A stretch of 21,291 nt of DNA from a virus. Position 1 is the first letter of the stretch, and the number at the start of each line of letters is the position of its first letter. Positions 7,896 through 21,291 of the stretch are shown one piece after another. The stretch spans positions 1 to 21,291 of the IMG/VR virus record IMGVR_UViG_3300044998_001408; one strand, written 5' to 3'. The notes below the pieces were generated by a model. That model had not been told where the DNA came from and made no database searches. It was given only the letters and a program-made list of their open reading frames with translations. A program made the position numbers and the translations under genes.

Positions 7896-7917
7896 CCTAA
7901 TTCTCCAATCTCCATCT

Positions 7918-7968
7918 CCCCTCCCCAAATATCCCGCCAGGGTATTTGGGGAGGGGTCGGGGGAGGGG
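7918..7968. repeat. Palindromic GC-rich element R2
   Basis: Arms CCCCTCCCCAAATA and TATTTGGGGAGGGG with a short CCC/GGG inner stem and a TCGGGGGAGGGG tail. It fills the tail tube-G gap and ends 23 nt before the G start codon. The 51-nt unit is identical to the core of R4 and differs from R3 at one base. Confidence 0.9.
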
Positions 7969-10157: not shown

Positions 10158-10208
10158 CCCCTCCCCAAATATCCCGTCAGGGTATTTGGGGAGGGGTCGG
10201 GGGAGGGG
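10158..10208. repeat. Palindromic GC-rich element R3
   Basis: Same 51-nt unit as R2 with one base changed in the loop (CGTCA for CGCCA). It fills the gap between the stopper and gp10-like genes and ends 29 nt before the gp10-like ATG. Confidence 0.9.
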
Positions 10209-10969: not shown

Positions 10970-10992
10970 TTCTGAAATCTCCGTTTACTACT

Positions 10993-11055
10993 CCCCTCCC
11001 CAAATATCCCGCCAGGGTATTTGGGGAGGGGTCGGGGGAGGGGTCGGGGGAGGGG
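10993..11055. repeat. Palindromic GC-rich element R4 with duplicated tail
   Basis: The 51-nt core equals R2, but the TCGGGGGAGGGG tail occurs twice in tandem (to 11055). It fills the major capsid-connector gap and ends 24 nt before the connector ATG. Confidence 0.9.
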
Positions 11056-11058
11056 GTC

Positions 11059-12216
11059 TTACGACCCGCTGCCATTGCTTGCAATCGTCATCTTCGGGTC
11101 CATGCGCGAACCGCCAAAAATATGACGCACCTTGTACTCGCGGGCGTCCGTCTCGAAATCCCATTCGTCCACGCCGCCGCCGCCCACGCGCACCGCGTTC
11201 GGCTGCTTCATGAACAACTGCGGTTCTTCGTATCCGCGCAGGAAGCCCACCTCCAGCGCGGGACGCCCGTTGCTCGGATTGGCGAAGAAGAACCATGACG
11301 TATGACCGTTCGCCGTGCTTGCGATGATCGGGATGTACGGGTTCACGTTCACACGGAAGCGCGTCTTCATCCAGTTCGTGGCGACCAGCTTCGTGTTGCT
11401 CGTTCCGCCTTTTTCAGCCAGTTCGATCTGCAGCGCGTTGATGATGTTCAGCGCGGTCGGTTCCAGTGCGGGCGGCACTACTAGCTCGATCATCTCGATG
11501 AAGATCGGCTCGCCGTTCTCGTCGGTCAACTTGCTCCACGTTTCCATCGCAGTCTGCAGGGCGTTCAGCGAAAGTACGGGATTGCCAGTCATCTGGTTCA
11601 CCCCGCCCGTGTAAAGCGATGAGTGCGGACCGCTCGCGCCGACGAACAACTGCGTCACGAACTTCAATTCGCTTCGGCGCGCGGCGCGTCCCAGACGTTG
11701 CGGCGCGTCAGCCAGGGCGTCCAGGTCGTCGTTGATGAAGGTCTCGAACGAAAACGGCAGCTTGCGCCCGTGTTTCTTCACAACATAGGTGTACGGCGCA
11801 TTCTCGTTGATTTTCGATGCGGGATAGCGCTGCTTTTCCTTCACCTCGGACAGCACATCGTCCGCGCCGTAGGTCGAGAAACGCTTCACCTCGCGGAAAT
11901 CGCGCACTGTTGCCCGCTTCGCATAATTCGCCCAATCCGCGGGATACTCCTGGTACGCCGCCAGCAACTGGCGGTCCAGCACATCCCCGAACAGATACGG
12001 GAAATCGCTCGTGGTCATCGCCTCCTGCAGGCGGTATGAAGGCGTCCGTCCCCGCAGCACATTGCTGATCAGCGTCGCGGCTTCCGCCAGGCGCTTCTTG
12101 TAATCGGGGCTTCTGCGCATTTTGAAACTGCGCACGCCCATCCCCTCACCGCTTAACAACCTCTCCGTGCTGGCTTCCTCCGCGCGGACGGTTTCAAGTA
12201 ATTCAAGGAATTCCAT
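11059..12216 (-). CDS. Major capsid protein (HK97-fold, Mu gpT-like)
   Basis: A 385-residue protein preceded by a very strong AAGGAG, as expected for the most abundant virion protein. Conserved features of the gpT-like group include LQEAMTTSDFPYLFGDVLDR, the YPADWANYAKRATVRDF stretch, YTYVVKKHGRKLPFSFETFINDD and ELKFVTQLF; later come ALQTAMETWSKLTDENGEP, LVVPPALEPTA and a C-terminal WDFETDAREYKVRHIFGG strand. These fit the HK97 fold (E-loop, spine helix, P and A domains). The N-terminal 35 residues may be a small delta-like region. The segment RLLSGEGMGVRS near residue 20 looks like a remnant of a dispersed repeat. Upstream lies the DUF2190 protein, downstream the connector. Confidence 0.93.
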   Translation of the reverse strand: MEFLELLETVRAEEASTERLLSGEGMGVRSFKMRRSPDYKKRLAEAATLISNVLRGRTPSYRLQEAMTTSDFPYLFGDVLDRQLLAAYQEYPADWANYAKRATVRDFREVKRFSTYGADDVLSEVKEKQRYPASKINENAPYTYVVKKHGRKLPFSFETFINDDLDALADAPQRLGRAARRSELKFVTQLFVGASGPHSSLYTGGVNQMTGNPVLSLNALQTAMETWSKLTDENGEPIFIEMIELVVPPALEPTALNIINALQIELAEKGGTSNTKLVATNWMKTRFRVNVNPYIPIIASTANGHTSWFFFANPSNGRPALEVGFLRGYEEPQLFMKQPNAVRVGGGGVDEWDFETDAREYKVRHIFGGSRMDPKMTIASNGSGS

Positions 12217-12231
12217 GTTTTTATCTCCTTA

Positions 12232-12258
12232 TGTCATTCTGAGCGTAGCGAAGAATCT
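12232..12258. repeat. CTGAG...GAAG dispersed repeat S2
   Basis: TGTCATTCTGAGCGTAGCG then AAGAATCT, a short dispersed palindrome abutting the decoration gene stop (12259-12261) and ending 16 nt before the major capsid start, just above its Shine-Dalgarno sequence. Confidence 0.75.
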
Positions 12259-12621
12259 CTACGCCAGCGCCTTGATGACCTCGATGGTCGCCGTTGCGCC
12301 GCTCGATACCGTCCCCTTGGCAAAGCCAAAGAAACGACCCGTCGCCTTCTTCGAAACGGGCGGGCTGTCCGCGTCCACGTAATACAGCTTGTCGCCCAAG
12401 GCGACTGCCGAGTTCCCGCTTCCGTCCACACCCCTCACCGAAATGTCCCAAACGTTCCCAGGTGTGAAATCCACGCTGGTCACCCCGTCGCTCTGCTCGT
12501 TAATCAACGCGACGCCAGTTGCCTCGCCAAAGCGGACAGGGTCTCCCGAAGCGGGCGTAGCTGGGTGCGAACACACCACCGCCAGCCCATTCGCTTCACC
12601 GTACTTCAAATTCTTTGCCAT
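12259..12621 (-). CDS. Capsid decoration/stabilising protein (DUF2190-like)
   Basis: A 120-residue beta-rich protein between protease/scaffold and major capsid. The pattern GLAVVCSHPATPASGDPVRFGEATGVAL, then SVDFTPGNVWDISVRG with ALGDKLYYVDADSP and FFGFAKGTVSSG-type sequence, is that of DUF2190 proteins: repeated G-D-P-V / G-D-x-L-Y turns and many small strands. Members decorate and strengthen mature capsids. GAGGTGAACT lies before the ATG. Confidence 0.85.
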   Translation of the reverse strand: MAKNLKYGEANGLAVVCSHPATPASGDPVRFGEATGVALINEQSDGVTSVDFTPGNVWDISVRGVDGSGNSAVALGDKLYYVDADSPPVSKKATGRFFGFAKGTVSSGATATIEVIKALA

Positions 12622-12660
12622 AGTTCACCTCTTGTCTTTTGCTCCCTCCCTTTCCACTAC

Positions 12661-12698
12661 ACCCCCCTCTCCTTTAGGAGAGGGGCTGGGGGTGAGGT
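12661..12698. repeat. Palindromic GC-rich element R8
   Basis: Perfect 9-bp stem (12664-12672 with 12677-12685, TTTA loop) plus CTGGGGGTGAGG tail. It fills the gap between the protease/scaffold stop and the decoration gene start. Confidence 0.85.
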
Positions 12699-12717
12699 GG
12701 GCAGGGAAAAGGGTTAT

Positions 12718-13161
12718 TCACCGACCACTCGCCGCCAGCTTCGCGCCGCTCTCGCTCAAACCAAGCCCCGCGAACGCCTTTTCCAACTGCACATCCACAT
12801 CGGCTTCGTCGAACTCGGTGGCTTCCGTACCCGAACTGCCCAGCCCGCGGACCTTCCCCAAGCCCGCCGCTTTCGTCAGGTATTCCACCTCAGCCTGCAC
12901 CGCTTCCGCGATCTTGGCTTCGAATGCCTCCCCGTCCAACGCGCCTTCCTTCATGGGCGCGCCCTTCGGCAGGCTCTCCAGCAGACGCGCCTTCGTCGCC
13001 TCGGGCAGATCGAACTTGACGAGCACACGGCTCACCATGTCTTTCGCGTCCCGCAGTGTCAGCGCCTCGCTCAGCCTGGCATTCTTCTCCTTTTCCGCGT
13101 CCAGATCGGTCTTGAGCGCGGAAACGGACTCCTGCAAGTCGTTCAAAACTTTCTCGTCCAT
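12718..13161 (-). CDS. Nested capsid scaffold protein (internal start)
   Basis: An in-frame ATG at 13161 (residue 326 of the protease gene) is preceded by AAAGGAG at a 6-nt spacing, better than many true starts here. The 147-residue product would hold a predicted coiled coil (LNDLQESVSALKTDLDAEKEKNARLSEALTLRDA, residues 6-40), a basic helical middle and a C-terminal EFDEADVDVQLEKAFAGLGL helix that could bind capsid. This is the scaffold layout known from lambda Nu3, which is likewise made from an internal start inside the protease gene. Independent translation is inferred. Confidence 0.7.
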   Translation of the reverse strand: MDEKVLNDLQESVSALKTDLDAEKEKNARLSEALTLRDAKDMVSRVLVKFDLPEATKARLLESLPKGAPMKEGALDGEAFEAKIAEAVQAEVEYLTKAAGLGKVRGLGSSGTEATEFDEADVDVQLEKAFAGLGLSESGAKLAASGR

Positions 13162-14136
13162 ACGTTTCTCCTTTACAAATTTATTTTCCACGCTCTTGGA
13201 CGTGGTTTTCTTATCGGCATCTCCCCCCTTTGCCCTTGGGGAAGAGGGCTGGGGGTATGCCGCCTCGAACAACGAAATGATCTGACCGCCCGCCCCTGGA
13301 GCGGTCACAAAATCCACACTCTTCCGCTTCGTCAATTCCTGGATGATCGGACCCTCGCGGTTCTCGATCTTTCCCTGCGTCGCCTTGCCATACGCGCGGA
13401 TGCTCACCCCGATGTGCGGCGCAAGATCGTCCACCGCACGCTTGTAATTCTCGAACACCTTCGCATCTGCGTACAATCCCGCTCCAGCGGGACCGTTGGA
13501 CTGATACCGCGCATCCGTCACCAACTCCGCTGCCAGCGCATTCAAATCCCCTTCGGGGCGCTCCGCTTCCTCGCTGGGCGTCTGGTGATTCCAATACATC
13601 TTGGTGCCGCGCGTGAAAATCTTCGGACCATCTCGCTCGAGCACCTCAGCAGGGTAATAACCGCTCGATCCCCACCCAGGCTGGATGATCTTGATCGGGA
13701 TCGTCCCATCCCGCCGCACAGCCGTCTCGATCAGCGGCACAAACATCGCCCCATCCCCCGACTCCACCAACTCCACACCCCCCTCTCCATCACGCAGTGA
13801 TGGGGAGGGGCTGGGGGAGGGGTTTCCCTCACTCACACTCTGTCCGTCATCCTTCGGCGCATCCTCCCACGGACTGCGCTCGAACAACTGCGGCGCATTC
13901 TCTGTCAGGAATCCATGATATGAATCCAACGCCGCCCCGATCGCGCCGCTCAATATCTTCCTCTCATCGCGCGTCACATAACCATGCCCGAACATATCAT
14001 CAGCCATGTTCGTCAGCGACAGGTGCAGGCGGCTTTCCAGCCACTCCGCCGTATTCGCCCGCTCCATCAATGGCAGGTCATCCCCGCCCCGCCCGCGGAA
14101 CAATTCAAGGAATTTTTGCAATTTATTTTTCTTCAT
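12718..14136 (-). CDS. Capsid maturation protease fused to scaffold
   Basis: A protein of 472 residues from the ATG at 14136, which overlaps the minor head stop (ATGA) and has AAGGAG 6 nt upstream; a longer ATG at 14166 is less likely. Residues 24-95 form a helical N-domain. Residues about 130-290 look like a prohead protease of the herpesvirus-assemblin-like type: candidate catalytic His184 in MYWNHQ and Ser245 in HIGVSIRA. Residues 326-472 are the scaffold. Two palindromic elements are inserted in frame, adding Pro/Ser-rich NPSPSPSPSL (about 104-119) and PQPSSPRAKGG (about 294-306). The second falls at the protease-scaffold boundary. The third catalytic residue was not identified. Confidence 0.85.
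   Translation of the reverse strand: MKKNKLQKFLELFRGRGGDDLPLMERANTAEWLESRLHLSLTNMADDMFGHGYVTRDERKILSGAIGAALDSYHGFLTENAPQLFERSPWEDAPKDDGQSVSEGNPSPSPSPSLRDGEGGVELVESGDGAMFVPLIETAVRRDGTIPIKIIQPGWGSSGYYPAEVLERDGPKIFTRGTKMYWNHQTPSEEAERPEGDLNALAAELVTDARYQSNGPAGAGLYADAKVFENYKRAVDDLAPHIGVSIRAYGKATQGKIENREGPIIQELTKRKSVDFVTAPGAGGQIISLFEAAYPQPSSPRAKGGDADKKTTSKSVENKFVKEKRMDEKVLNDLQESVSALKTDLDAEKEKNARLSEALTLRDAKDMVSRVLVKFDLPEATKARLLESLPKGAPMKEGALDGEAFEAKIAEAVQAEVEYLTKAAGLGKVRGLGSSGTEATEFDEADVDVQLEKAFAGLGLSESGAKLAASGR
13221..13255. repeat. Palindromic element R9, in frame in the protease gene
   Basis: CTCCCCCCTTTGCCC opposite GGGGAAGAGGG, with CTGGGGG tail; imperfect stem. It adds about 12 residues between the protease and scaffold parts and ends about 60 nt above the internal scaffold start. 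Confidence 0.75.
13775..13822. repeat. Palindromic element R10, in frame in the protease gene
   Basis: 14-bp stem with one mismatch (13780-13793 with 13797-13810, GCA loop) and CTGGGGGAGGGG tail. It encodes about 16 Pro/Ser/Gly-rich residues between the N-domain and the protease domain. Confidence 0.85.
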
Positions 14137-14981
14137 ATTTTCTCCTTCTTCCTCTGATACCGACACTCACACCTGCACCCAGGGAACCGCAGCGGACGCA
14201 AATGTCCGCTCGGAAACGCCGCATCCAACCCGATCCAGCCTGCCTCCTCATTCTCTCGGCACCCGTCGCTTACCTTGTCATCCCCCACCGTATTCCACGA
14301 CTTCTCCATCGCCAGACCAGCCGCCTCCAGATCCTTCGCCACAATGCGGTTGCCTTCCTCATACGCATTGCCCAGTTCCGTCACCGCGATCAACCTCGCC
14401 CGATACTCCGAAATATCATCGAAGCGTTCCAGGATCGCTTCCATCGTCTTTTTGTACGACCAGCCCTCCTCCGCCGCCTGGTTCAACAAGGTCTGCAACA
14501 ACTCCCTTGTCGTCTCATTGACGCCCGTCACCAAGTCTGCGCCATAATCGCGCAGGTAATCCTCCGCGCGCGGATTCTTCAAATCAAAATTGATCTTCAG
14601 TCCCAGTTCGGCGATCATCGCAATCCCGCCCAACTCCAGCGCCTTCTCGATTGCCTCGTCAATTGGCAGCGAAAACAACTTCGCCGTCTCCAAAACAATC
14701 TGCGCCCAAATCGCATTGAACTCGCTTGGTGGCAGCGCCTCCTCGAACTTCATATTGAGCCAGGCGTCATGCATCTTCCACGGATCTTCGCTCTCCGAGA
14801 AGAACCGCCGCACCTGCCGAAACTTCGACGCCAGCGCGCTTGCCTGCGAACGGAACGCCTTCCGCAGTTTCATCTCCAGCGGACGGATCAGCCTCTCCAT
14901 CTTCCTCCGCTGGTTCCCCCGCCGCAGCGCCTCCTCGAACGCATCGTGGGCGGAAACGACATTACGCAGGTTCGTGTCCAT
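14133..14981 (-). CDS. Minor head protein (Mu F / SPP1 gp7-like)
   Basis: A 282-residue protein between portal and protease, its standard place. It is helical over most of its length, with conserved ISEYRARLIAVTELGNAYEEG and the C-terminal KSWNTVGDDKVSDGC plus FPGCRCECRY, the W-x-x-x-x-D-x-x-V-x-D-x-C...P-x-C-R-C signature of the Mu-F-like domain. It is thought to sit inside the head near the portal and to be ejected or to assist assembly. Its start overlaps the portal end by 20 nt and its stop overlaps the protease start. Confidence 0.9.
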   Translation of the reverse strand: MDTNLRNVVSAHDAFEEALRRGNQRRKMERLIRPLEMKLRKAFRSQASALASKFRQVRRFFSESEDPWKMHDAWLNMKFEEALPPSEFNAIWAQIVLETAKLFSLPIDEAIEKALELGGIAMIAELGLKINFDLKNPRAEDYLRDYGADLVTGVNETTRELLQTLLNQAAEEGWSYKKTMEAILERFDDISEYRARLIAVTELGNAYEEGNRIVAKDLEAAGLAMEKSWNTVGDDKVSDGCRENEEAGWIGLDAAFPSGHLRPLRFPGCRCECRYQRKKEKI

Positions 14982-16590
14982 TGACTCCTGCCTTCTTGTA
15001 CTGTTGGATCGCCTCCGCCAGCTTCCGCGCCGCCTCCTTCGTCCGATCGTCGCTCGCAGAACCCAGCCCGCTCGTCACGCTGCTTGTCCCATCGGGGAAC
15101 AACAGCGCCATAATTTCATCCACATCATCCTCGCCCATCGCGTTCAAGATCAACCGTGTCGCAAGTTCTTCGTCCAACAGCATCAACTGCTGCCCGTTCA
15201 GCGTCAGCGCGGTAACCACCGCCTGCACCGCCGCCTGGACATCCTTCTCGAGGATCGGCGGAAAATCGATGTCAAGATACGTATTCACCCTAGTATTCCA
15301 AACGATCTTCTCTTCCTTCTCGCCCTCGTCCTCGATGATCTCCACATGCCCAAGTTTCTTCACATCAGAGTTGTACTTCACCGCCTGCAACATCACATAC
15401 TCGAAGATCTGCTTCAACACATCCGTCCAGAACGTCTGCCCCTCCTTCATCCCCAATTCCGTCGGACGGTCCATCGTCTTTGCCGTGGCAAACGTCCCCA
15501 CCGAAACGTCCCCAAAATACGTCTCAGGCAGTCCCAGCCCAGCCGCCGCCATCAACAGGAAACGCCGCCCATCGTCTGCAGAGATCGCCGCTCCGCGCAA
15601 CTGCATCGGTTGCAGGTCCGTTCCTTCACCCAAAAACGCCATCGCGCCCGTCACAGGCGGCGGGTTCGTCTCATCGCCCATTCCGCCGCCAGCCGCCAGT
15701 GTCGTTGCCATCTTCGCACGCTCTGCCGCGATTGCCTTCTTCCCGCCCTTCGTGATCCGCTTCCAGGCAAATCGGCTGTACGCCCGCATCAGCGAAGCCA
15801 CATCCTCCAAAAATTCCTTGTATGCCCGCGCCCAGTCAATCGCTGCATACACCTGGCTCACCCCGAACTTCCATCCGCTCATCCCGCCCGCCCGCGCATG
15901 GAACACAGGCGCATCCCACTCGATCTCCATCCCCCCGATCCTCGCAAGCCTCTTCACGGGCTTGTATCGCCAATCGGGATAGCAGGCTGTCCTGTTGCGC
16001 GTAATGCGCCGCCCGCGTGAGTCAATGCCCTTCTCAGTCCATTGTCGGACGTAAAACCACGGCGTCTTCGCATCCTCGGGGTCGCTGATGATCTCCGTGA
16101 TCTCATCGAATGGCAGCGTCCTCACCCTTACTCTGCCGTCTGTTGGTCGCGTGAAAAATACGAAGAAAATATTCCCGTCAACCTCAATGTCCACCTGCTT
16201 CAACATCTGCGCCTGGTGGCTCGTCAACTCCGCGCGGTTCTTGGGATCGTCCCAAAACGCCTGCAGGACTTTGTTCAACGTACCGTTGCTGTACTTGATA
16301 TTGATCCCCTGCGCCCAGATATACAACGCTTTCACCATCACGCCGCGTTTGATGATCGGATTCTTGATGAACATCACCCGCGCCAGGTCGGTGATCTTCC
16401 TCAAACCGCCTCGGCTGAACTCATGCTCACCATCCAACATCAACCGCATCCAGTTCGCATCTTCCAGGGCAAGCTCCAGCTCCGCCAGTCGCTCGCTCAA
16501 AACCTCCGTGTTGAAACTGCTCTGACGCACTTCCTGCATCAAAGCCTCATTCAACTCCATCAACTGCGTTTTCGTCACTCGTCCAGCCAT
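14962..16590 (-). CDS. Portal protein
   Basis: A protein of 542 residues from the ATG at 16590 (MAGRVTKTQ), with AGGA 6 nt upstream; the in-frame extension to 16617 falls in element R11. It has the position (after the large terminase) and pattern of phage portals: an N-terminal helical part, ARVMFIKNPIIKRGVMVKALYIWAQG, a strand-rich DIEVDGNIFFVFFTRPTDGRVRVRTLPFDEI segment, FKFGV-type crown motifs (MSGWKFGVSQVYAAIDWARAYKEFLED), and LGLPETYFGDVSVGTFATAKT ahead of long C-terminal helices. The dodecamer forms the DNA channel and docks the terminase. It overlaps the minor head gene. Confidence 0.93.
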   Translation of the reverse strand: MAGRVTKTQLMELNEALMQEVRQSSFNTEVLSERLAELELALEDANWMRLMLDGEHEFSRGGLRKITDLARVMFIKNPIIKRGVMVKALYIWAQGINIKYSNGTLNKVLQAFWDDPKNRAELTSHQAQMLKQVDIEVDGNIFFVFFTRPTDGRVRVRTLPFDEITEIISDPEDAKTPWFYVRQWTEKGIDSRGRRITRNRTACYPDWRYKPVKRLARIGGMEIEWDAPVFHARAGGMSGWKFGVSQVYAAIDWARAYKEFLEDVASLMRAYSRFAWKRITKGGKKAIAAERAKMATTLAAGGGMGDETNPPPVTGAMAFLGEGTDLQPMQLRGAAISADDGRRFLLMAAAGLGLPETYFGDVSVGTFATAKTMDRPTELGMKEGQTFWTDVLKQIFEYVMLQAVKYNSDVKKLGHVEIIEDEGEKEEKIVWNTRVNTYLDIDFPPILEKDVQAAVQAVVTALTLNGQQLMLLDEELATRLILNAMGEDDVDEIMALLFPDGTSSVTSGLGSASDDRTKEAARKLAEAIQQYKKAGVNGHEPA

Positions 16591-16604
16591 AACATTCCTA
16601 GTCT

Positions 16605-16650
16605 CTCCCCTCCCCATTACTTCGTAATGGAGAGGGGTCGGGTGGAGGGG
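16605..16650. repeat. Palindromic GC-rich element R11
   Basis: 14-bp stem with one mismatch (16607-16620 with 16624-16637, TTC loop) and a TCGGGTGGAGGGG tail directly abutting the large terminase stop (16651-16653). It ends 15 nt before the portal ATG. Confidence 0.85.
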
Positions 16651-18252
16651 TCACACGGGGCTTATACTCACCCTCTCCTCGTAGACAAACTCGTTCTCAT
16701 CATCCTGCTCAAGTTCTTTTATCGCTTCGACAATCCCCCGCAGTTTGTTGAAGCCAGTGCTGCTGCCGTCCACCTGGTCTTTGAAGCGCGCCTTCGGGAA
16801 AGCCGCCAACTCGTCCAGGTACTCGTCGATCCAACCGCCGCTTACAAGGCGCACCCGTCCTGCCTGTGCCTTCGAAGCGAACGGTCCCGCATTTGTTTCC
16901 TTATCGCCAGTAACCTGCTCGAAAAAGCCATACAGACCGTGATCGGCAAGGTTAGCATTCGTCGCTCTGGCGCTGTCCAACCCTGCGCTGCCAGGGTCTT
17001 GCGGATGCACAATCATGTGCGCGCCGTAGGTCTTGTAATCCTCGACCCCCAGTTCGATCATCTTCGCCTCGCGCTCCGCCGAAGACACCTGATCCTTCCA
17101 CACATGCTCGATGTAAATGTAATCATCCCGCCCCCACGAAATGACCACCCGCGAAGACCTCGCCCCGCCGCCAGCCGTTGCCGCCTTGTCCCACGCGCTC
17201 AAGCGTGCGTATACATTATTGCCAGGCCCGCTCGGTACTTCCACGAACCAATCCCGCTTGAACATCGTGCCCTCGCGCGAATAAGGCGCTTGCTGGTAAA
17301 GCGACTCGAAGTCATACAGCCCAAGGTCCGCACGGGTTGACTTCAAAAAACCTTCGTCGTACCACGACGGGCACAACGCCTCTCCCGCTTTCCGCGCCAG
17401 CGGGTCGCTCAAAGGCAGGAAAACACCCTCGCGCATCCTCTTTCGCTGTTCCGCTTCTGTTGCAGGGTATTTTTCCAACGCCAGCCCAGGCATACAAACG
17501 ATCTGCCACTGGCTTGCCAGCGGGTCGCTCACCATCCTCTGCATCAGCCTGCCCGCCAGGTCGTCTAGATGCCAGCGCGTGTGGAAGATCACCACAGCTG
17601 CATTAGGACGCAGGCGCGTGCGAGCCGCGCTCTTGAACCAATCATCCACCAACTCGCGCCGCGATTCGCTCTCGGCTTCTTCGCGGTTCTTGAATGGATC
17701 ATCGATGATGAATAGATGCGCAGGCAGGCCTGTAATACCGCCGCCCACGCCAGCCGCTTTCACACCGCCCCGATACGGTCTCGCCAGATCCCAATTCTCG
17801 GTCGAGCGCGAATCACTGCTCAATTCGACGGGCATGATCTTGTCGCTTTTCGTGCCGAAGATCGCCTGATATTCTGGGGCGACGATCTGGTCGCGGATGA
17901 ATCGGCTGTGGCGGGTTGCCAGGCTGTCGCCGTATGAGGTTAAGATTACGTGACTGTCTGGCAGAATACCCAATAACCACGCGGGGAAATTGCGGCTGGC
18001 AATCTGGCTTTTCCCGTGTTGCGGAGGCATGAAGATCATCAGGCGTCCGATGCCTCGCTTCCCGCCGCTTGCAATATACAGTGCCACTTCCTGCAATTTC
18101 GCAGCCAACAGCCGCACATGCGGCGGCGTTTCATAACGCGGATCTACATACTGGCAATACGCCAGAAAATTACGCCGCGCCGCCTTGCGCAGTCGCTTTT
18201 CTTCAGCGGCATCGCGTGGAGTGATCGTGATGTTCGAAACCGCAGGCAGCAT
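16651..18252 (-). CDS. terL: Terminase large subunit
   Basis: The packaging motor: an ATPase that pumps DNA and a nuclease that cuts it. Length is 533 residues from the ATG at 18252; a GTG at 18255 is also possible and overlaps the small-subunit stop. Motifs (numbered from the GTG) are MPPQHGKS (76-83), a variant Walker A; LFIIDDPF (about 181-188), Walker B; VVIFHTRWH (221-229), a coupling motif; and in the nuclease half acidic residues in SAWDKAAT (D355), HPQDPGSAG (D420) and FKDQVDG (about 492-496), which fit the RNase H-like metal triad. This is a full-length protein with no frameshift. Its C-terminus ends beside element R11. Confidence 0.95.
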   Translation of the reverse strand: MLPAVSNITITPRDAAEEKRLRKAARRNFLAYCQYVDPRYETPPHVRLLAAKLQEVALYIASGGKRGIGRLMIFMPPQHGKSQIASRNFPAWLLGILPDSHVILTSYGDSLATRHSRFIRDQIVAPEYQAIFGTKSDKIMPVELSSDSRSTENWDLARPYRGGVKAAGVGGGITGLPAHLFIIDDPFKNREEAESESRRELVDDWFKSAARTRLRPNAAVVIFHTRWHLDDLAGRLMQRMVSDPLASQWQIVCMPGLALEKYPATEAEQRKRMREGVFLPLSDPLARKAGEALCPSWYDEGFLKSTRADLGLYDFESLYQQAPYSREGTMFKRDWFVEVPSGPGNNVYARLSAWDKAATAGGGARSSRVVISWGRDDYIYIEHVWKDQVSSAEREAKMIELGVEDYKTYGAHMIVHPQDPGSAGLDSARATNANLADHGLYGFFEQVTGDKETNAGPFASKAQAGRVRLVSGGWIDEYLDELAAFPKARFKDQVDGSSTGFNKLRGIVEAIKELEQDDENEFVYEERVSISPV

Positions 18253-18968
18253 CACTCCGTCTCACTTTCCCCACTCTCCAAACCTGTCCTGAGCGTAAGT
18301 GAAGGATCATTTGGGGAGGGGTCGGGGGTGGGGTAAAACATCCCCGCCAGTTCCTCAGCGCCTTGTGCCAGATCGTCCAGCGTGGATTCATCCAACTCAT
18401 GCGCGCCGCCGTCCGCCTTGCGTTTCAACACCGCCGCAACCTGGTTCAGCGGCACGTAATCGCCAGTCATCTCCATGTACAACTTCAAATGGTTGAAAAA
18501 CTTGTAATCCTCGCCAGACTTTTTCATGCCGTTGATCAAATTCATAAATGAGTCCGCTCGATGCTCCCACAACTCAAGCGTCTGCATTACGCCAATCATC
18601 CCTTCGATGGCGGGGTTCTTCTTCTTCCACAAACTGATTGCGCGGTCGCTCGATAGGCTGAGATATTTTGTAGCCAAATCCTCTTGTGTTCTCGGTTCCC
18701 GCCCTTCCAGCGGAGTGGACGCCCACGCGATGTAACACGCCTGTCGCCACGTCCAACCGCTCTCGACCAGCATTTCAAACCGCCCGAACCATGCGGGCGC
18801 ATCTGGCTTGCCCTTCAACGCAAAAAAAGCGGAACGTCCCGCTTCCGAAATCAAGCGTGCCTGGTCTTGCGGAATATTCTCCAGTTCCACCTCTGGCAGG
18901 TCCAATGCCAGGGCAAGCTGGGTATATTCTTCGGATAACTTGAAACTTAAAGGTCTTGCTAACGGCAT
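18252..18968 (-). CDS. Terminase small subunit-like protein
   Basis: A 238-residue protein whose stop overlaps the large subunit start, the usual arrangement. A helical stretch RTQEDLATKYLSLSSDRAISLWKKK (about 93-117) is a candidate helix-turn-helix for recognising the packaging site, followed by helices suited to oligomerisation (FMNLINGMKKSGEDYKFFNHLKLYMEMTGD). GGAG lies 7 nt before the ATG. Residues 212-235 (YPTPDPSPNDPSLTLRTG onward) are the translation of element R12 with a nested CTGAG-type repeat, so the natural end probably lay near residue 210. The assignment rests on position and layout, less on sequence. Confidence 0.8.
   Translation of the reverse strand: MPLARPLSFKLSEEYTQLALALDLPEVELENIPQDQARLISEAGRSAFFALKGKPDAPAWFGRFEMLVESGWTWRQACYIAWASTPLEGREPRTQEDLATKYLSLSSDRAISLWKKKNPAIEGMIGVMQTLELWEHRADSFMNLINGMKKSGEDYKFFNHLKLYMEMTGDYVPLNQVAAVLKRKADGGAHELDESTLDDLAQGAEELAGMFYPTPDPSPNDPSLTLRTGLESGESETE
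18269..18333. repeat. Palindromic element R12 with nested second repeat, in the TerS C-terminus
   Basis: Arms CCCCACTCTCCAAA (18269-18282) and TTTGGGGAGGGG (18310-18321) with a TCGGGGGTGGGG tail. The loop is replaced by a 27-nt CTGAG-type repeat. It lies 17 nt upstream of the large terminase ATG. Confidence 0.85.
18283..18309. repeat. CTGAG...GAAG dispersed repeat S3
   Basis: CCTGTCCTGAGCGTAAGTGA then AGGATCA, sitting exactly between the two arms of R12. Same class as S1 and S2 and in the same orientation. Confidence 0.75.
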
Positions 18969-18982
18969 AATTTACTCCGTGT

Positions 18983-19273
18983 TCACGGGTACAAAATCTG
19001 CCAAAGGCGGATGAAAACGTCGCCTACGATCAGCGGGACTAGGATCCACAACAGACGGTATCCGACCAGGTACGTGCGCCACATCACGTTAACCTTGCCC
19101 AAGTCGTCGTGATACGCTCGCATGAACATCACGAACAATCGCTGCGTTTCCAAAACCATACGGCTCTCTTTTGAAAGGGACTTATTCGCCAGCATCGCGT
19201 CAATGGATTTGCTGTACTGATCCAGCAAAGCCTCTTCCACTTTCCTTCCAGACGTAGTGGTCTCTCCGCTCAT
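18983..19273 (-). CDS. Small membrane-anchored protein (possible lysis/holin-like)
   Basis: A protein of 96 residues from the ATG at 19273 (MSGETTTSG); the longer in-frame ATG at 19348 would overlap the SH3b gene by 60 nt. The N-terminal two thirds are helical and charged (EEALLDQYSKSIDAMLANKS, ESRMVLETQRLFVMFMRAYHDD), and the C-terminus is one membrane helix (YLVGYRLLWILVPLIVGDVFI). The shape, a soluble helix plus one C-terminal membrane span, recalls XhlA-type and other lysis helper proteins. It sits with the holin-like and SH3b genes, 14 nt from each neighbour. Function is inferred from architecture only. Confidence 0.65.
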   Translation of the reverse strand: MSGETTTSGRKVEEALLDQYSKSIDAMLANKSLSKESRMVLETQRLFVMFMRAYHDDLGKVNVMWRTYLVGYRLLWILVPLIVGDVFIRLWQILYP

Positions 19274-19287
19274 AAAATCGCCGCCTA

Positions 19288-19656
19288 CTAGGGCTTCGGT
19301 CCGCTGTATCCCTGACTGCGCAGATACTGATCTACCGCCGCCATCCATGTATACACGTTCGACGGAATTGCGGCTGTAGGAACTCCTGACGTGGGCGGAT
19401 GCAATGGAGAACTGATTGTGCTCGTCTGCTCACGTGCGTAGATGATGTTTCCGATGGCAAGACACGCATATTCCTGCACGCGTTCATCGCCGCGGCTCAC
19501 CCGCGCCCACACCTGGTTCCCTTGCGCGAACACATCCATTGCCCTGAAACCCTCGCCGTTCGACATGACCCGCATGATCGTGCCAGTCTTCGTATCGGGT
19601 TTCGAGCGGACATTCAGTCCGCTCTTATTCACCACTACAAACACACGCTCTGTCAT
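19288..19656 (-). CDS. SH3b-domain protein
   Basis: A 122-residue protein starting 1 nt after the holin-like stop, so probably translationally coupled. Residues 1-75 form a bacterial SH3 domain: VNKSGLNVRSKPDTKTGTIMRV, the hallmark G-L-N-V-R-S, then NQVWARVSRG and YACLAIGNIIYA. Such domains bind cell wall peptides and are common on phage lysins. A Ser/Pro/Thr linker and a C-terminal helix (MAAVDQYLRSQGYSG) follow. No catalytic peptidoglycan domain or signal peptide is visible, so this is not a complete endolysin; it may target a partner to the wall or stay in the cytoplasm until lysis. Confidence 0.8.
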   Translation of the reverse strand: MTERVFVVVNKSGLNVRSKPDTKTGTIMRVMSNGEGFRAMDVFAQGNQVWARVSRGDERVQEYACLAIGNIIYAREQTSTISSPLHPPTSGVPTAAIPSNVYTWMAAVDQYLRSQGYSGPKP

Positions 19657-19657
19657 G

Positions 19658-20065
19658 CTATCCCCCTGGCGTATGTTGGAAGCTCTTCAACGTGTCCTTC
19701 AGTCCAAAGCTGGCGAGGATGGTCACGATCAAGGTCAATGCAACCGCCACCGAAGGCTGCGCGGCTTCAGGGATCGCCGAAAGCAATGCGTTGAAAAAGA
19801 AAATGACGCTCATCGCAATCGAAGCCGTAAGCGCCGAACCCCAGCCGCTGATGTCCTTTCCGACCAAATGCGAGATCGACTTCAGCCCTTGCGTCACCAA
19901 TAGACCGATCACGATCACGATCAGGTTCTCAATTTCCACAGGCAGGGTAACGCCGCCTTCCTCCGCAGGCACAACATCCTGTGCCACAGGCGCGGCAAGC
20001 GCGGGGCTGGCAAAAACGAACGCCACCCCAATAACCAGAACAACCGAAACAAACAACTTTTTCAT
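19658..20065 (-). CDS. Holin-like membrane protein
   Basis: A protein of 135 residues from the ATG at 20065, with AAAGGAG upstream; a longer in-frame ATG at 20209 would read through element R13. It begins with a signal-like segment (MKKLFVSVVLVIGVAFVFA then SPALA, a plausible signal peptidase site). Membrane helices follow at about 46-62 (ENLIVIVIGLLVTQGLK), about 79-101 (LTASIAMSVIFFFNALLSA) and about 106-125 (VAVALTLIVTILASFGL). Small size, several membrane spans and first place in the late operon next to an SH3b protein fit a holin, which would time lysis. The short C-terminus is basic. Other small membrane proteins cannot be excluded. Confidence 0.7.
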   Translation of the reverse strand: MKKLFVSVVLVIGVAFVFASPALAAPVAQDVVPAEEGGVTLPVEIENLIVIVIGLLVTQGLKSISHLVGKDISGWGSALTASIAMSVIFFFNALLSAIPEAAQPSVAVALTLIVTILASFGLKDTLKSFQHTPGG

Positions 20066-20101
20066 CCTGTATCTCCTTTTTTCTTCCCTCTCCATCTCTC
20101 T

Positions 20102-20160
20102 CCCCTCCCCAAATGCCGCTCTTGCTCTTTGGCATTTGGGGAGGGATCGGAGGAGGGGGT
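20102..20160. repeat. Palindromic GC-rich element R13
   Basis: Perfect 15-bp stem (20103-20117 with 20131-20145) and 13-nt loop, with an ATCGGAGGAGGGGG-type tail. It lies between the leader terminator and the holin-like gene, in its 5' untranslated region. Confidence 0.88.
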
Positions 20161-20181
20161 GGATTCTCCGCTCAGGGAAAC

Positions 20182-20218
20182 AAAAAGCGCCCGCGTGACA
20201 AATCGTCACGCAGGCGCT
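20182..20218 (-). terminator. Intrinsic terminator in the late leader
   Basis: On the minus strand a 14-bp stem (arms 20205-20218 and 20186-20199, 5-nt loop) is followed by TTTTTG. The one variable pair is a U-G wobble in the minus-strand RNA but a C-A mismatch in the plus-strand RNA, and only the minus strand has the T run. It lies about 120 nt upstream of the holin-like ATG, inside the leader transcribed from the two promoters. No promoter is visible between it and the first late gene. Confidence 0.88.
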
Positions 20219-20250
20219 CTACCTGCAATCTTGACCTCGCCTGCCTTCGG

Positions 20251-20283
20251 CCCTCCCACTCTGGGTGGGATCGGGGGGTAGGG
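20251..20283. repeat. Degenerate palindromic element R14
   Basis: TCCCAC/GTGGGA stem (20254-20259 with 20265-20270) and a TCGGGGGGTAGGG tail in the same orientation as the other elements. It lies in the leader between the second promoter and the terminator. Confidence 0.6.
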
Positions 20284-20316
20284 CTATGGTCAGCGGAGAT
20301 ATTCAGTTACATCAAA

Positions 20317-20344
20317 ATTTTAACAAATGTTCTACAAAAGTCAA
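20317..20344 (-). promoter_or_regulatory. Near-consensus promoter P2
   Basis: Minus strand TTGACT (20344-20339), 16-nt spacer, TAAAAT (20322-20317). Start expected near 20310. The region between and downstream is AT-rich, unlike the rest of the window. It lies between the upstream hairpin and the leader terminator. Confidence 0.6.
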
Positions 20345-20358
20345 GTCTTTAATTAAAA

Positions 20359-20398
20359 CGCAAGCGGACGGCCTGAGGGGGGCAGGTCGCCCGCTTGC
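20359..20398 (-). terminator. Hairpin at predicted +1 of P1, terminator-like
   Basis: 14-bp stem (20385-20398 with 20360-20373) with one mismatch and one G-U pair, an 11-nt C-rich loop, and GTTTTAATT after it on the minus strand. It begins within one or two nt of the predicted start of promoter P1. It could end upstream transcripts, truncate P1 transcripts, or act as a 5' RNA structure. Confidence 0.6.
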
Positions 20399-20405
20399 AA
20401 AGTGA

Positions 20406-20433
20406 ATTATACGCAAGTGAGTCCGTTTGTCAA
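20406..20433 (-). promoter_or_regulatory. Perfect consensus sigma-70 promoter P1
   Basis: Minus strand TTGACA (20433-20428), 16-nt spacer, TATAAT (20411-20406), both hexamers exact. Start expected near 20399. It points into the late operon and is the best promoter in the window. Its -35 overlaps the stop codon of the 45-codon ORF. Confidence 0.75.
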
Positions 20434-20567
20434 TATGTTCGCCGCAAGGTTTCAGAGATCCATCCTTGCGGCGCCATCTCATACCCATGCCAATCCAGCC
20501 AGACATGGACAATCGACGCCGCCAGCCTCGGAAACCGTCGCACGATGAAAGTCGCTATCAGATACAT
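20430..20567 (-). CDS. Possible small ORF of 45 codons
   Basis: An ATG at 20567 preceded by CTGGAGGATGC (GGAGG, 4-nt spacing) opens a 45-residue frame: a hydrophobic start (MYLIATFIVRRFPRLAASIV) and a Trp-containing end (HVWLDWHGYEMAPQGWISET). The frame stays open upstream to an ATG at 20723, but only the shorter start has a good ribosome site. No family recognised. It ends within the -35 of P1. It may be a real small gene or chance. Confidence 0.3.
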   Translation of the reverse strand: MYLIATFIVRRFPRLAASIVHVWLDWHGYEMAPQGWISETLRRTY

Positions 20568-20587
20568 GCATCCTCCAGGAAATGAAA

Positions 20588-20612
20588 TTGCCCCATCCAA
20601 AGAATGGGGCAA
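20588..20612 (-). terminator. Hairpin, possible weak terminator
   Basis: Perfect 9-bp inverted repeat TTGCCCCAT / ATGGGGCAA with a 7-nt loop. On the minus strand it is followed by a T-rich stretch (TTTCATTTCC). It could end the transcript of the gene at the right edge. It lies about 10 nt above the ribosome site of the 45-codon ORF. Confidence 0.45.
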
Positions 20613-20883
20613 AATAAAAACAGAACAGATAGATTCATCCCTTGGAGGGGACACGAGCATGATTATAACCACGTCGCACCGCTCTCCACCTTTCAGATCA
20701 TTAACAGTAAAACCGCATTTCACCCCACGGCAGTTTCAACGATCAGGATCTGTTTTATTCTATATGGTCTCGATACTTGAAAGGTATCTTGCATATGTGT
20801 CTTTGAAAGAGAGCAACGGCTTGCTTTACAGGCAGCGGGCGGGGTAGATAATGCCCATTTGCCGATAAAGCCTAAAGTGTGGA
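20613..20883. other. Intergenic region without recognisable gene
   Basis: About 270 bp below the edge gene, more AT-rich than the rest. Short frames are open on both strands, but none has a ribosome site together with a recognisable protein. A 5-bp palindrome (GATAC...GTATC) near 20770-20790 and a lone TATAAT-like hexamer near 20660 lack partners, so I assign nothing. Confidence 0.5.
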
Positions 20884-21291
20884 TCAATCATTTTCAGCGG
20901 GAGAATCCCCGCTGTCCTGTGCAAGCTGTGTTAGGCGTAGACGGACGGCTCTCTGCAATAATTCAAGCCCGTAATCTTCTAGCCAATCAGTCATGCTATC
21001 GTAACCATTGCCGCCGAAATATTCATCGGCTTTCATTTGCCTTGCGGCTTCGGCTAAATCTTCGCCACCAAGTAGCGGGAAATCCAGCGTAGTTCCATAC
21101 TCGCCAGGCTCAAACTTTTCTTCTGGCACAAAATCAAATTCGGCGGCACTCTCTGGTGTATGCAAATGCAACGACACAATCAAACCAGTATCGCAATATT
21201 CACAACCGCGATAGATTTCAACCACCATGACATTGCCGCCAATCTCAACAATCTTATACGGGCGTGTCTCGCCACAACCACATTCACCCAT
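20884..21291 (-). CDS. Cys-rich acidic protein at the window edge
   Basis: A 135-residue frame whose ATG is the last three bases of the window, so the true start and ribosome site cannot be judged and the gene may extend further. C4, C6, C30 and C33 (CGC ... CEYC) form a plausible zinc site around beta strands (KIVEIGGNVMVVEIYRGCEYCDTG). The rest is acidic, with helices near the end (WLEDYGLELLQRAVRLRLTQLAQ). No family recognised. It lies 450 nt upstream of P1 and probably belongs to a different transcription unit from the late genes. Confidence 0.65.
   Translation of the reverse strand: MGECGCGETRPYKIVEIGGNVMVVEIYRGCEYCDTGLIVSLHLHTPESAAEFDFVPEEKFEPGEYGTTLDFPLLGGEDLAEAARQMKADEYFGGNGYDSMTDWLEDYGLELLQRAVRLRLTQLAQDSGDSPAEND

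Follow-up and report, generated by a model that had tools for sequence, protein, structure and literature searches.

The locus examined here raises a simple question: how can the late genes of a phage be transcribed when a strong terminator stands between the promoters and the first gene? The window, meaning the whole stretch of DNA that was analysed, is an IMG/VR virus record of 21,291 bases, with the late operon on the minus strand. An earlier reading of its letters, hereafter the original prediction, had described promoters followed by hairpins in tandem, ending in this terminator, and had compared the arrangement with lambda Q and with put-type antitermination. To our knowledge, the control of late genes has been worked out in few phage models, and we know of hardly any phage biology for the host phylum.

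The late operon and its relatives

The late operon comprises the following features.

19658-20065, minus strand: first late gene, encoding a 135-aa protein that resembles a holin in position and character, with membrane segments and a signal-like N-terminus.
11059-19656, minus strand: remaining late operon to the capsid gene (SH3 protein, small protein, terminase small-like protein, TerL, portal, MuF, MCP).

Pfam and PHROG searches gave no informative match for the first late gene product, and a protein search with this gene returned no relatives; TerL and TerS were therefore used as queries, recovering dozens of relatives, in which homologues of the 135-aa protein also open the operon. The nearest relatives among bacterial genome records are Anaerolineales metagenome-assembled genomes (MAGs; L051, L052). 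No close annotated phage was found, the best TerL identity being 37% with no convincing leader match. The early region is absent from the 21,291-base contig; in two relatives (G004, G003), Pfam assigned early-region proteins to integrase, recombinase, primase and methylase families, which points to a temperate style.

The window also contains dispersed C-rich/G-rich hairpin repeats, with one copy at 20165-20089, between the terminator and the first late gene, and partial copies at 7902-7968, 10991-11043, 10181-10208 and 18308-18333. Another of these repeats is an insertion close to the C-terminal end of the terminase small-like gene, absent from the gene in relatives.

Promoters and terminator upstream of the late genes

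Three elements define the route of transcription towards the first late gene.

20406-20433, minus strand: P1, sigma-70 promoter TTGACA-16-TATAAT (12/12 consensus match).
20317-20344, minus strand: P2, late-leader promoter TTGACT-16-TAAAAT (10/12 consensus match), its position upstream of the leader element M2 being conserved in relatives.
20182-20220, minus strand: intrinsic terminator, a hairpin with 17 counted pairs (20220-20184) followed by TTTTT (-30.1 kcal/mol).

As the original prediction had it, P1, which is perfect, and P2 both point towards the late genes, and they are the sole minus-strand promoter-like sites in 18500-21291; the hairpin with TTTTT before the first late gene is the strongest terminator in the region, and the minus-strand scan located no promoter-like site after it, between 20181 and 20065. 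Loosely defined promoters occur at chance level (3 found against 2.7 expected), so the case rests on conservation. In relatives, the order upstream of the first late gene is P1, a hairpin with loop UGCCCCCCUCA, P2, leader, strong terminator, ribosome-binding site and start codon; a P1-type promoter precedes the hairpin there too, and the terminator was found in 31/31 leaders analysed. The leader from P2 to the ATG folds far better than shuffled sequences (z -8.5).

About 16 leaders leave 18-33 nt between the end of the T-tract and the start codon, which is too short for a promoter plus leader, and late transcripts must therefore cross the terminator, coming from P2 or further upstream. The readthrough proposed for the window is thus needed in many relatives as well, where the gap leaves no room for a promoter.

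Two points extend the earlier description: the hairpin that follows P1 (20397-20353) constitutes a separate element, and the terminator is overlapped by an antiterminator hairpin. Since some relatives (e.g. L007, L064, L072) keep the P2 leader and lack the P1 unit, the two units are separable.

A predicted antiterminator in the P2 leader

The P2 leader contains, or is adjoined by, the following elements.

20178-20310, minus strand: M2, P2 leader RNA matched by covariance model R2 (45.9 bits, E 6e-8).
20233-20291, minus strand: hairpin H1, stem GACC (20291-20288) with GGUC (20236-20233), with motif AUAGC...GGCGA and an insertion that enlarges the loop.
20210-20226, minus strand: antiterminator hairpin X:X', GCAGG-UAGAGCG-CCUGC, pairing 20226-20222 with 20214-20210 (-9.5 kcal/mol).
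20293-20298, minus strand: leader 5' strand CUCCGC, complementary to GCGGAG beyond the terminator.
20166-20171, minus strand: GCGGAG element; it forms the 7-nt loop of a further hairpin (H3) in most relatives, while the window has lost the H3 stem.
20321-20332, minus strand: LexA-box-like GAACATTTGTTA, which overlaps the P2 -10 and agrees with the host pattern GAACN4GTTC at 7/8 positions.

The pattern CTCCGCAG...TGGYG gave mostly chance matches in viral contigs, and M2 was for this reason sought with R2, a covariance model built from 14 leaders with the window sequence left out and the X and X' columns unpaired. The 3' strand of X:X' is part of the 5' arm of the terminator, so that the two structures exclude each other. 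X:X' was searched with a script that locates the terminator and then seeks the best-scoring stem that its 5' arm can form with the preceding 18 nt. Across 31 leaders, own partners had a mean score of 13.8 against 9.43 +/- 0.53 for permuted ones (maximum 11.45 in 5,000), and a hold-out of 20 leaders found by R2, which is blind to X:X', gave 12.38 against 10.10 +/- 0.56 (maximum 12.35 in 10,000), figures that overstate independence, the leader sequences being related. The stem reaches at least 4 bp in 30/31 leaders (antiterminator range 4-6 bp; the exception, L221, has 3 bp) and is weak in the hold-out leaders L160 and L095a; its loop measures between about 5 and 11 nt.

In folding predictions on growing transcripts, the antiterminator (-9.5 kcal/mol) appears while the terminator 3' arm is not yet made, before the terminator (-30.1) displaces it; the terminator being far more stable, a trigger would be needed. 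M2 displays the hallmark of an attenuator, a covarying alternative hairpin that excludes an intrinsic terminator, and we consider it very probable from these comparisons that it constitutes a conserved alternative RNA fold overlapping a terminator. That the structures form and that the terminator works is what we infer. The involvement of RNA structure, also suggested earlier, thereby takes a concrete shape, that of a conserved leader antiterminator excluding the terminator.

Other parts of the leader covary as well. The 4-bp stem of H1 shows eight distinct pairings among 20 leaders, with 80/80 pairs standard, and the leader 5' strand and the post-terminator element occur in relatives in four combinations (CTCCGC/GCGGAG, TTCCGC/GCGGAA, CTACGC/GCGTAG and CTTCGC/GCGAAG), the segment boundaries in both cases having been picked by eye, which makes this evidence weaker than the X:X' permutation tests. 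The GCGGAG-type element is the loop of H3 in 13/17 leaders, on a stem of 4-8 bp, and the lost H3 stem of the window adjoins a dispersed repeat. Pairing of CUCCGC with GCGGAG is possible only once polymerase has read through. Hairpins similar to the dispersed repeats were seen inside the H1 loop of L061.

The perfect GAACN4GTTC is present in the promoters of 6/6 host lexA genes tested, and the pattern is matched 7/8 in 14/24 phage leaders, at one of two main positions. This suggests a second layer of control, at initiation, in which a LexA-like or other repressor would act at P2. By eye, the leaders share no conserved start codons, which makes leader-peptide attenuation unlikely.

A predicted hairpin RNA downstream of P1

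The element between the two promoters was characterised separately.

20353-20397, minus strand: M1, predicted to be a stand-alone small RNA transcribed from P1; a hairpin of ~45 nt that has a 13-bp stem, loop UGCCCCCCUCA and U-rich tail.

The window copy, one of the 28 members of covariance model R1, scores 56.2 bits against it (E 1e-13). A pattern consisting of the promoter -10 and the loop, in which the stem is not required, matches 42 viral contigs; among distinct viral and host loci with an upstream TATAAT, 61/70 pair 7 or more of 9 flanking bases, and interrupted stems account for most of the rest. Within the stem, 95% of cells are paired against 51% in shuffled sequences, and the covariation score is 1.13 against 0.25 for the shuffled and at most 0.23 for slid pairings. 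The search pattern itself accounts for part of the constancy of the loop. L316, found via M2 and not via M1, has the loop-closing U-A replaced by C-G yet keeps GCCCCCCUC unchanged, which suggests that the true constant loop is these nine bases.

The third stem pair from the loop is only G-C, A.C or G-U (41, 12 and 4 of 57 sequences), with a purine never on the 3' side, while the surrounding pairs change freely. In L148, around 2560-2620 on the plus strand, a long hairpin with a CCCCCC loop and without a U-rich tail lies between P2 and M2, possibly a displaced or degenerate M1. A pairing between the C6 loop of M1 and M2 was considered and dropped, G-rich stretches such as GGCGGGGCC not being conserved, by eye, where they would be needed.

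Distribution of M1 and M2 in phages and hosts

R1 matches 59/61 genomes of the family to which the genome of L051 belongs, usually with E below 1e-8 and in 1 to 8 copies each, 15/131 genomes across the phylum, Chloroflexota, and 0/7 genomes from other phyla, most of the host genomes being MAGs. The host copies are preceded by promoter-like sequences, and their genomic surroundings vary. In nine host loci (L278, L282, L283, L287, L290, L295, L299, L301 and L303), an ftsK/spoIIIE-type gene, recognised by sequence and not by domain search, stands upstream of M1, the distance being about 190-590 nt and for most loci 180-250 nt; this is likely the ancestral chromosomal location of M1.

Rfam yielded nothing at gathering and only scattered weak matches below it, M1 having no match, and no earlier description was found in the open-access literature searched, most subscription-journal papers lying outside the search. 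We are highly confident, on the basis of these patterns, that M1 is a real small RNA family, which is best read as an Anaerolineales small RNA also carried by phages.

M2 was detected by R2 in 5/152 host-family genomes, before holin-like genes as in the phages, and these copies are apparently prophages; wherever examined, M2 directly precedes late or holin-like genes. An M1 copy accompanies the M2 switch in many, not all, of these phages. The idea that the tandem promoter-hairpin units are one repeated device was given up, because M1 appears to be a family of small RNAs spread across the hosts and M2 a leader of phages. A second M2-like leader is present elsewhere in some phages (L194:2367-2460, L191:3299-3392, L065:2298-2387, L095:1106-1190), and L320 has two in tandem around 1501-1597.

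For the trigger, no gene upstream of P1 common to all relatives was found, and Pfam identified no known antiterminator among the proteins upstream of P1 or the early-region proteins of the two relatives, whose scans (G004, G003) contained no Q, N, NusG-like or ANTAR families. Several relatives have a second terminase-small-like gene upstream of P1 (L006:2275-2919, L060 and others). In L163, L173, L175, L177 and L198, the gene for a conserved ~70-aa protein (KEVYTLELEKLQRCFSEI...GWRQVE; family unknown) ends right before P1; the protein, a candidate regulator, also occurs in L009 (2039-2257), where it had no Pfam match.

Proposed mechanism and alternatives

We regard as probable a model in which M2 is an attenuator gating the late operon and P1 is a separate gene for M1. 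It draws on the conserved mutually exclusive structures, the lack of a downstream promoter and the differing distributions in phages and hosts. Conditional gating of the late genes by M2, taken by itself, is fairly likely. According to this model, polymerase from P2 would first make H1 and then X:X'. An unstabilised X:X' would be displaced by the terminator 3' arm, and transcription would stop by default with a short RNA of about 130 nt; if X:X' were held by a factor, whose control of the switch we infer, polymerase would read through into the late genes. GCGGAG, usually the H3 loop, could then pair with CUCCGC at the leader 5' end. Upstream, P1 would independently produce the ~45-nt C6-loop hairpin RNA.

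A two-RNA switch, in which the C6-loop RNA of phage or host acts in trans on the late leader or its antitermination factor, is a tentative extension to which we assign a low probability.

The nascent H1 and second hairpin might instead act directly on RNA polymerase, protein-free, in the manner of put. This is unlikely, even though two hairpins do lie near the transcript 5' end, putL is likewise an element of ~70 nt with two stem-loops right after its promoter (PMC9378689), and no antiterminator protein was found: the second hairpin and the local terminator are mutually exclusive, which suggests a local switch, and constitutive RNA-only antitermination would provide no control unless P2 itself were regulated.

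Covariation of X:X' while it excludes the terminator, seen again in the independent hold-out, also bears on the view that P1 and P2 make two stable small RNAs, with X:X' a by-product of folding and the late operon served by leaky termination or upstream transcripts. In host genomes M1 does behave like an independent RNA, and terminators end both units, as that view would have it, but M2 stands directly before late or holin-like genes wherever examined, and we think the explanation quite improbable.

We hold it decidedly doubtful that a lambda-Q-like phage protein loads on polymerase at P2 and makes it terminator-resistant, leaving the leader structures only to shape the terminator. Such logic has no need of a conserved terminator-overlapping antiterminator or a covarying H1; the order of promoter, terminator and late operon is that of lambda pR'-tR', and the regulator could lie unseen in the early region missing from the contig, yet no Q or N family turned up among the early proteins of two relatives, where a divergent Q could be missed.

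That the M1 hairpin is a mere intrinsic terminator insulating P2 from upstream transcription, as its stem and U-rich tail would allow, is very improbable given its own promoter, its constant loop, its 1-8 copies in most host genomes, the nine host loci downstream of an ftsK/spoIIIE gene and the U-A to C-G change of the closing pair in L316 with GCCCCCCUC kept.

Under the preferred model of an M2 attenuator and a separate M1 gene, a conserved leader attenuator would represent a third kind of control, next to Q-type proteins and put-type RNAs. M1, for its part, would stand for a family of small RNAs that occurs in nearly every genome examined of one bacterial family and lacks an Rfam entry, and its presence in phage late leaders would offer a handle on its function. 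If the two-RNA switch were true, a conserved Anaerolineales small RNA would help to time phage late gene expression.

Comparison with known systems

At lambda pR'-tR', a late promoter is followed by a terminator and then by the late operon, readthrough being the control point. The M2 locus shares the sequence of promoter, terminator and late operon with no further promoter. Q acts via a DNA element and a promoter-proximal pause (PMC7171158), whereas the conserved feature of M2 is an RNA antiterminator.

The put element is a two-stem-loop RNA of ~70 nt that acts on distant terminators; its triplex-containing V binds the polymerase zinc-binding domain with no trans factors, and it is a persistent polymerase-bound element of early operons (PMC9378689). 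Like HK022 put, M2 is a short RNA with two hairpins close to the beginning of a phage transcript, but its second hairpin shares bases with the terminator, and put, compared by its description, is not described so. Of the likeness to lambda Q and put drawn by the original prediction, readthrough and RNA structure stand, while membership in either class gains no support, Pfam having returned no Q or N among the early-region proteins of two relatives and the second hairpin of M2 overlapping the terminator.

M1 recalls the 6C RNA of Actinobacteria in being a small RNA with a C-rich loop. 6C RNA folds into three helices with two C-rich loops (PMC6582537), whereas M1 is one ~45-nt hairpin from a different phylum, and the Rfam 6C covariance model gave no match at gathering, nor at E up to 5.

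The targets of ANTAR proteins, such as the eut and nasF leaders, have two similar hairpins with hexanucleotide loops bearing A1 and G4 (PMC7496416). The hairpins of M2 depart from this loop rule, being unlike each other and with a second loop of about 5 to 11 nt, and no ANTAR domain was found in the phage early proteins scanned (G004, G003). What M2 has in common with ANTAR-type attenuators is the architecture itself: two small hairpins, the second of which overlaps a mutually exclusive terminator.
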